Positions 18,134-47,779 of a DNA stretch of 64,000 nt are shown in pieces. The notes under the pieces are model-generated. The model was given only the letters and a program-made list of their open reading frames with translations, made no database searches and was not told the DNA's origin. Each line of letters begins with the position of its first letter. The stretch's first letter is position 1. Location: NCBI RefSeq assembly GCF_000177635.2, contig NC_014836.1, forward strand, positions 98,501 to 162,500. The letters run 5' to 3'. A program made the position numbers and the translations under genes. Origin of the DNA: Desulfurispirillum indicum S5 (GTDB taxonomy: Bacteria > Chrysiogenota > Chrysiogenetes > Chrysiogenales > Chrysiogenaceae).

Positions 18134-18161
18134 AAACCCGCTCTTCAATGGTAAGTTTCTC

Positions 18162-18738
18162 AACTTTCGCACCCCCGAAACGGCAGGTTGTCGGCGCTGA
18201 CCCACATGCAATGCTGGAATGGCCGAAATGGTTCTGCTCAGACTGCATTTCTTTTGCCACTTTGGACCCGCCCAAAGTGGCTGGGAAGCGTTCCCCAGTG
18301 CTGTCCTTTTCAGCCGTCCGCTTGCCTGGAACTGGGGACCGCAAACAACCGCCCTCCGTGGCTTTTGGTTTGCGGTTGCCGCCCTCGTGGCGGCAACCCT
18401 GCGGATCCATCGCGTTATGCAGGCAAGACCCGAACGGGACACCTGCAGGAAGCAGGTGGTCCGGCAGCACTGCAGGGAAGCAGGGGTCAGGCAACGCAGC
18501 AGATGGGGCTCTTTGAGCAGCCTGCTGCCGGATCTCCAGGACAGGCGAGCAGGCGAACCGGAAGAACGGGCGTTCGGGGGGCGCGTTTTTGTACCCTTTT
18601 TGACCGCGCAAAAAGGGTAATATCTGGAAACAGAAAGAGGAATACCAGATGATTCAAGTAATTAAAATCAATACGGTTTTAGTGATGTAAAGGCTAGGAT
18701 AATAATGCCTTAGTCCAAGGCAGCAAGATGCGAAACTT
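18162..18738. mobile_element. Element A: TIR-bounded, hairpin-rich dispersed repeat (short copy)
   Basis: A 577-base non-coding segment. It is closely similar to element B at 46734-47644; a large block around 18295-18425 is almost identical. Ends are inverted: CTCAACTTTCGCA at the left and the complement of CTCAAGTTTCGCA at the right. GTAAGTTT flanks both sides (18151-18158, 18741-18748), like an 8-base target duplication. Inside are hairpins at 18256-18281, 18441-18457 and 18592-18619. No transposase or convincing ORF is present, so it would be non-autonomous. The rest of the 18134-18803 gap holds no gene I can support. Confidence 0.7.
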
Positions 18739-18803
18739 GAGTAAGTTTGTCATGTTTAATCACCCGCTGGGCGAACCAGCAACGGAAAGGGAGGGAAGAG
18801 GCC

Positions 18804-46261: not shown

Positions 46262-46733
46262 GTTCTCTCCTTTGACCGTATGGCGATTCTGGTCAGTTGA
46301 TTTTCTGTGACAGCCTATACGAAAACCATAAAAAATGTACAGTGAAAAGGCGTTGGGGTGTTGTGGAAAAACTGTTGATGTTTTCATTGTTTTGAGGGGA
46401 AGAAGTCGATGCTCCAAGGGTCAGTGGGCAGGTGAGTTAGGGTGGCTGCTCCATCGGGTGTTCTTGGGAGGTCGTAAATTCAACGGACACTTTTGCGTAT
46501 TTCTTGAGATTGCCCGCTGATTATCTTCTTTATTTGGTGTAGGTTAGCGTGGGTTCGGCAGTGGCGCCTCAGGGTGGCAGTTTCCCAATGGAATATGCCT
46601 GTGACTTTTTGCCCGTGCCGAATACGCTCTCCAGGTTCTCCCGTGTTTTGTTACCAAGTGCCTGTTGATAACATGTTGATAGCCTTGGGGTGTTAGTGGC
46701 AACTCCAGATACATGTAGCTTTACGGTAAACTG
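46262..46733. other. Non-coding stretch between secB and element B
   Basis: 472 bases with stops in all frames at short spacing and no gene I can support. It presumably holds the secB promoter near its left end. The phrase AATTCAACGGACACTTTTG near 46478 is reminiscent of some insertion-sequence ends, but no partner end or transposase is present. Confidence 0.4.
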
Positions 46734-47022
46734 AAGTTTCGCACTCCCGAAACGACAGGTTGACTGCGCCGATCCTGGCACTATGTTGGAATGGAGGAAA
46801 TGGTTCTGCACAGACTGCGTCGCTTGACATTGCCCTCACCCTGTTTATGAGTTTCTTTTGCCACTTTTGGGTCGCCAAAAGTGGCGTAAAAGCGACCCCC
46901 AGTGCTGTCCTTTTCAGCCGTCCGCTTGCCTGGAACTGGGGACCGCAAACAACCGCCCTCCGTGGCTTTTGGTTTGCGGTTGCCGCCCTCGTGGCGGCAA
47001 CCCTGCGGGTCCATCGCGTTAT

Positions 47023-47146
47023 GCAGGCAATTGAAAAGTTCTCAGGTGCAAGGCGCACGCAAGGTGAGGAGTGAGACGTACTTCCTGTACGTCGCAGTGA
47101 CGAGCACTGGTGAGCAACGCCGCAGATGAGGCTTTTCAGCAGCCTG
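47023..47146 (+). repeat. Small TIR repeat s3 (inside element B)
   Basis: 124 bases with ends CAGGCAATTGAAAAG and the complement of CAGGCTGCTGAAAAG (12 of 15 matched). The interior holds TGTACGTCGCAGTGACGAGC, shared exactly with s4. Element A lacks this block. Confidence 0.65.
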
Positions 47147-47305
47147 ACAGTCGGCGCGTTCTGGCTGGGAAAGTACACGGGGGAGAGACAGAAGCAGACA
47201 GTTCCCCCCTGAGCCCGTCCGGTGAGTGCGACGCCTGGCTGGCAAGACCCGAAGGGACACTCACAGGAAGTGAGTGGTCCGGCAGCACTGCAGGGATGCA
47301 GGGGT

Positions 47306-47430
47306 CAGGCAACGCAAAGAGGCCCAGGTGCAAGGCGCGGGCAAAGCGAGAAAGGAGGCGTACTTCCCTGTACGTCGCAGTGACGAGCGATGCCCTGCAA
47401 CGCAGCAGATGGGCCTCTTTGAGCAGCCTG
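47306..47430 (+). repeat. Small TIR repeat s4 (inside element B)
   Basis: 125 bases with ends CAGGCAACGCAAAGAGGCCC and the complement of CAGGCTGCTCAAAGAGGCCC (16 of 20). It shares the interior with s3. Element A retains only the two termini (18488-18522), as if 88 bases were lost between GCAACGCA direct repeats. Confidence 0.65.
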
Positions 47431-47779
47431 CTGCCGGATCTCCAGAACAGGCGAGCAAACGAGCCGGAAAAACGGGCGTTCGGGGGGCGCGTTTTTGGGT
47501 CCTTTTTGCGCGGTCAAAAAGGACAATATCCGGAAACAAAAAGTGGAATACCAGATAAGTCAAGCATTCAAAATCAATACGGTTTCCGCGATATAAATGT
47601 CAGAATAATAACACCTTAACCTAAGACAACAAGATGCGAAACTTGAGGGTAAAGCGATCCAACATTGGCGGACTCTGGAAATCACCCATCTGTGGCTTTG
47701 CCCGCGGTGCCTCATTGCCGCAAGCGCAGGGGAAGCGCCCTTGCTCCTTGTTCGCGGGCAACCTGGCACCTTGGGTTAT

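Follow-up and report, generated by a model that had tools for sequence, protein, structure and literature searches.

Two closely similar segments, A and B, lie 28 kb apart in a 64,000-bp stretch of the Desulfurispirillum indicum S5 genome (the window; positions 98501-162500 of the single contig of 2,928,377 bp that makes up the genome), and they raise the question of what kind of sequence they are and what put them there. An earlier note, written from the letters of the window, had taken them for members of a non-autonomous, MITE-like family with terminal inverted repeats, and the rest of the genome bears this reading out through empty sites, 30 flanking duplications and a total of over 70 loci. 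We consider it highly likely (probability about 0.86) that A and B are non-autonomous MITE copies that were moved in trans by an IS1634-family DDE transposase and orphaned, and whose interior has been converted.

Both proposed elements are real, but their exact ends lie 3 bp further out on each side than had been proposed. Copy B (46731..47647, forward strand) is a full-length element of 917 bp, bounded by a left terminal inverted repeat CTGAAGTTTCGCA (46731..46743, forward) and a right one CTCAAGTTTCGCA (47635..47647, reverse), and flanked by the two copies of its target duplication GGTAAA (46725..46730 and 47648..47653, both forward), just as the note had it. Within B, all on the forward strand, we located a hairpin H1 with the allele CCACTTTTGG..CCAAAAGTGG (46860..46885), a module M1 that is a truncated copy of a second repeat, M, with ends CAGGCAATTGAAAAG / CTTTTCAGCAGCCTG (47021..47147), a hairpin H2 with the allele CACTCAC..GTGAGTG (47258..47276), a second M copy, M2 (47302..47430), and a hairpin H3 with the allele GTCCTTTTTG..CAAAAAGGAC (47499..47524). 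Copy A (18159..18741, forward; 583 bp) is a deleted variant in which the greater part of the middle core and of both M modules is gone and the right-hand 34 bp of M2 survive (18491..18524, forward). Its terminal inverted repeats are CTCAACTTTCGCA (18159..18171, forward) and CTCAAGTTTCGCA (18729..18741, reverse), and its hairpins, again on the forward strand, are H1 with the allele CCACTTTGG..CCAAAGTGG (18256..18281), H2 with the allele CACCTGC..GCAGGTG (18440..18458) and H3 with the allele ACCCTTTTTG..CAAAAAGGGT (18593..18618), the loop of the last being inverted relative to B. The target duplication of A is the 7-bp TAAGTTT (18152..18158 and 18742..18748, both forward); the additional G that had been included in it is not duplicated.

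A and B are members of one repeat family present at no fewer than 73 places in the genome, where it takes up at least 35.5 kb, or at least 1.2% of the sequence. This count is a lower bound on loci with element-specific sequence, taken from 65 stretches around copies; a genome search with B as the query gave 80 matching pieces, and the left, middle and right parts are all present at 49 of the 73 or more places. Full copies carry the 13-bp terminal inverted repeat CTSAASTTTCGCA at both ends, in agreement with the inverted repeats first seen on A and B. Thirty two-ended copies have flanking direct repeats, 22 of them exactly 6 bp, four of 7 bp and one of 5 bp, the remaining three being 6 bp with one mismatch, so that the duplication is a perfect 6- or 7-bp one in 26 of the 30. 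The duplicated sequences differ from copy to copy, with a consensus of about TTANAA and an AT content of 73%, compared with 50% in the flanks. Common ends and direct repeats in other copies were what the earlier reading had called for, and finding both favours a MITE; 30 genome copies combine the same ends with a direct repeat, far more than chance would give. On the other side, age or recombination has left about 14 of the roughly 44 copies examined either without a legible duplication or with one end missing.

The insertions can also be followed through natural empty sites, obtained by removing an element plus one repeat and rejoining the flanks. The rejoined flanks of the copy at 740922 match an M element (L099, 83%) from another genus with no gap at the junction, and those of the copy at 924521 match an uninterrupted M element (L086) across the junction. 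These uninterrupted M elements, from the genome itself and from the sister genus, are natural empty sites and confirm that the MITE inserted. The proposition that A and B are ordinary dispersed duplications or gene remnants whose terminal repeats arose by chance could draw on the fragments that lack one or both ends, but it retains practically no probability, already refuted as it is by the ends that copies share, by the exact 6-bp duplications, of which there are over 20, and by the empty sites.

Shared ends, varying target duplications, the lack of a transposase and the empty sites all place the family among MITEs. Its copies are mostly 580-1,070 bp long (the shortest about 336 bp), and the typical ones thus exceed the 50-500 bp given for MITEs in a review (PMC10969869), which is a usual size and not a strict limit. 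Neither A nor B contains a transposase, as had been observed, and the same is true of every copy of the family. The two segments had also been judged not to code convincingly, and a coding function for the interior is ruled out by the six reading frames, all broken in many copies, and by the lack of clear codon periodicity. No autonomous copy came to light either, for none of the paired ends flank a matching transposase; the longest pair, 1,590 bp apart (2788198-2789787), is a MITE copy into which one copy of an IS5-like insertion sequence has inserted. This IS5-like element, with the end GAGCTTGTCCATAAAT, has about 15 genome copies (L108-L122; for example L109, approximately 1034-1958).

Relatives of the MITE were absent from 58 other genomes, among which only module M was found, in one sister genus, and none were found in plasmids and phages. 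The left-end pattern had no exact match among 84,980 species represented by one genome each, a set from which the D. indicum genome itself was possibly left out. The main text of the D. indicum S5 genome paper does not mention transposons, insertion elements or mobile elements (PMC3368425). The family is, apparently, an undescribed and unusually long one in the deep-branching Chrysiogenota, and apparently without a living driver.

Copy B is a composite, in that it carries two truncated copies of M (around 125 bp), which are 81% identical to each other over 106 bp. M also exists on its own, with 157 first-look candidates in the genome and 46 in the sister genus, and weak relatives occur in three unrelated genomes. 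It measures approximately 125-155 bp, with ends like CAGCTTGCTGAAA / CAGGCTGCTGAAAAA and a central GCGTACTCCCCGTACGTTGCAGTGACG hairpin (L153, L158, L160, L099, L154); free-standing elements extend about 30 bp further on the left side, with ends like TTAACAGCTTGCTGAAA...TTTTTCAGCAGCCTGTTAA. No target duplication was seen at M elements, and searching the literature for their end sequence turned up nothing related. Many MITE copies are missing one or both M modules, at the same two sites, which points to two probable entries of M into the MITE, followed by amplification or exchange. Some MITE copies would in this way have gained an unrelated short repeat once or twice, and M may offer the two families a movable stretch of homology at which to recombine. 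At one locus (L036, genome positions 440368-440864), a free-standing M element is joined to MITE core.

What drove the family is best approached through its ends, which the note had been unable to assign to any family and which can now be matched to the IS1634 type, with no exact-end relative found. IS1634 elements are described as having ends C-----YT and AT-rich duplications of 5-6 bp (PMC2266710), and a trap assay with ISPfe2, an element of the IS1634 family, yielded duplications of 6 bp (PMC3281130). Looking for an inverted repeat accompanied by a direct repeat, we located the termini of 14 IS1634 elements belonging to several bacterial phyla; for several plasmid elements we chose the end register that starts with C and gives a 4-6-bp duplication. 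The resulting pattern is approximately C-Y-S-R-R-S-T-T-N-N-R-C-A. Examples are CCCAAGTTTGACAG with the duplication TTGAAA (L127), CAGGAGTTTATCAG/CTTGACTTTATCAG with TTTAAA (L151), CCGGACTTACGCAC/CCGAACTTACGCAC (L132), CCCGAGTTCCGCAG from Rhodococcus and CTCATCTTTGACAG from Alicyclobacillus, the last with ATAAAA. On the matrix built from these 14 elements the MITE ends score 11.7-13.0 bits, within the span (mostly 9-16.6 bits) that real IS1634 ends cover when scored leave-one-out; random or permuted 13-mers reach such a score with a P of about 4e-5 (range 3-8e-5). Like those of IS1634, the MITE ends begin with C, show TT at positions 7-8 and, for the most part, CA at positions 12-13, and accompany AT-rich duplications of 5-6 bp (22 of 30 exactly 6 bp, 73% AT); the 7-bp duplications of 4 of the 30 copies are borderline for IS1634. 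Unlike IS1634 elements, the MITE has no transposase gene and is shorter, and the likeness is confined to the 13-bp ends.

As the exact end CTSAASTTTCGCA turned up on none of the IS1634 elements wherever we searched, the link to IS1634 rests on this similarity of ends and on the length of the duplications, which make an IS1634 driver very likely rather than proven. The IS1634 transposase model NF033559, which does match other genomes, has no match in the D. indicum genome, and we therefore speak of an IS1634-type orphan and not of a proven derivative. Protein-based scans for an IS1634 parent gave nothing usable, and the search suggested earlier for a transposase with the same ends found none in the genome, so that the family appears to be orphaned and probably no longer mobile. 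In the proposed mechanism, an IS1634 transposase would have bound the 13-bp ends and excised or copied the element, whose joining to a staggered cut would have duplicated an AT-rich target of 6 bp, sometimes 7 bp; the transposase would then have been lost, leaving copies that are most likely immobile today. A different DDE family, of which the most plausible is the IS4 subgroup ISPepr1, or else another IS family could have been responsible, and all eight specified positions of the published ISPepr1 ends, YT-AA-YTT---A (PMC2266710), are indeed matched by CTSAASTTTCGCA. However, ISPepr1 duplicates 7-8 bp (PMC2266710), while 22 of the 30 MITE duplications are exactly 6 bp, only four reach 7 bp and none 8 bp. 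The DDE_Tnp_1 matches in the genome, moreover, look like copies of the single IS5-like element, with ends unlike those of the MITE, and we consider a driver outside IS1634 very improbable.

IS1634-related MITEs are already known, having been recorded in Methanosarcina barkeri and M. acetivorans (PMC3852290), and the present family is longer, more numerous and partnerless. Like the Methanosarcina elements, which were assigned to IS1634 partners, it is non-autonomous and multicopy, and the 247-bp M. barkeri MITE, with 23 copies, has 6-bp direct repeats as here (PMC3852290). The Methanosarcina MITEs are, however, archaeal and around 250 bp long, and a putative partner IS is named for them (ISMba11, ISMac10; PMC3852290), whereas that of D. 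indicum is mostly 580-1,070 bp, is found at 70 or more places, lacks a partner in the genome and contains nested modules. Among bacteria, the Chunjie MITE of Geobacter uraniireducens is similar in its many full and partial copies, its terminal inverted repeats and its direct repeats, as a review describes it; it is 178-235 bp long, and a nested second repeat family does not feature in that description (PMC10969869). With its many copies, nested repeat and natural empty sites, the D. indicum family is a usable case for studying orphan transposon decay and concerted evolution.

The interior of the element has evolved differently from its ends. Among 39 copies, the outermost 160 and 110 bp had a diversity of approximately 0.18-0.21, compared with 0.06-0.08 in the core, which has many singletons (37 in 130 bp) and few shared variants. 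Distance matrices of different regions were nearly uncorrelated (rho -0.24 to 0.20; 0.45 for core C and the right end), all four combinations were present at 73% of informative site pairs, and the copies are mosaic. Ectopic recombination or gene conversion among the 70 or more copies would shuffle the interior and keep it homogeneous, while the ends, bordering on unique flanks, would diverge. Exchange between copies with a homogenised interior explains the diversity pattern better than strict constraint does, and gene conversion is its probable cause, as judged from the sequences of the copies. The hairpins come in several alleles: H1 occurs as TTTTT/AAAAA, TTTTG/CAAAA and TTTGG/CCAAA, H2 as CACTCAC/GTGAGTG and CACCTGC/GCAGGTG, and H3 as GTCC/GGAC, GCCC/GGGC and ACCC/GGGT. 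Double changes (H1, 7 and 4; H2, three adjacent; H3, up to 3) keep the arms complementary, with no broken pair at these positions of H1-H3 in 15 copies. Either template switching at palindromes or structural selection could account for these compensatory alleles.

The interior might instead be a functional structured RNA or DNA element under selection, for which the transposon ends are merely a vehicle, and both the complementarity of H1-H3 preserved through allele changes in the 15 copies and the low diversity of the core, 0.06-0.08 as against about 0.2 at the ends, are what such an element would display. We nevertheless regard this as unlikely: a core rich in singletons but poor in shared variants and nearly uncorrelated regions are predicted by conversion without selection, template switching can keep palindromes perfect and loop inversions are observed, and large deletions of the core are tolerated, copy A being an example. 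An Rfam search of the window, moreover, returned only a tRNA, and no structured-RNA family matches the MITE. A combined version, in which the hairpin-rich interior of 435 bp is a maintained RNA or DNA module with selected stems that is spread by conversion, seems to us distinctly improbable; if true, it would turn a dead transposon family into a genome-wide set of around 70 structural or regulatory sites. At a further locus (L055, genome positions 1093896-1096280), MITE copies are arranged in tandem or nested, one of them beginning beside hairpin H3 of another.
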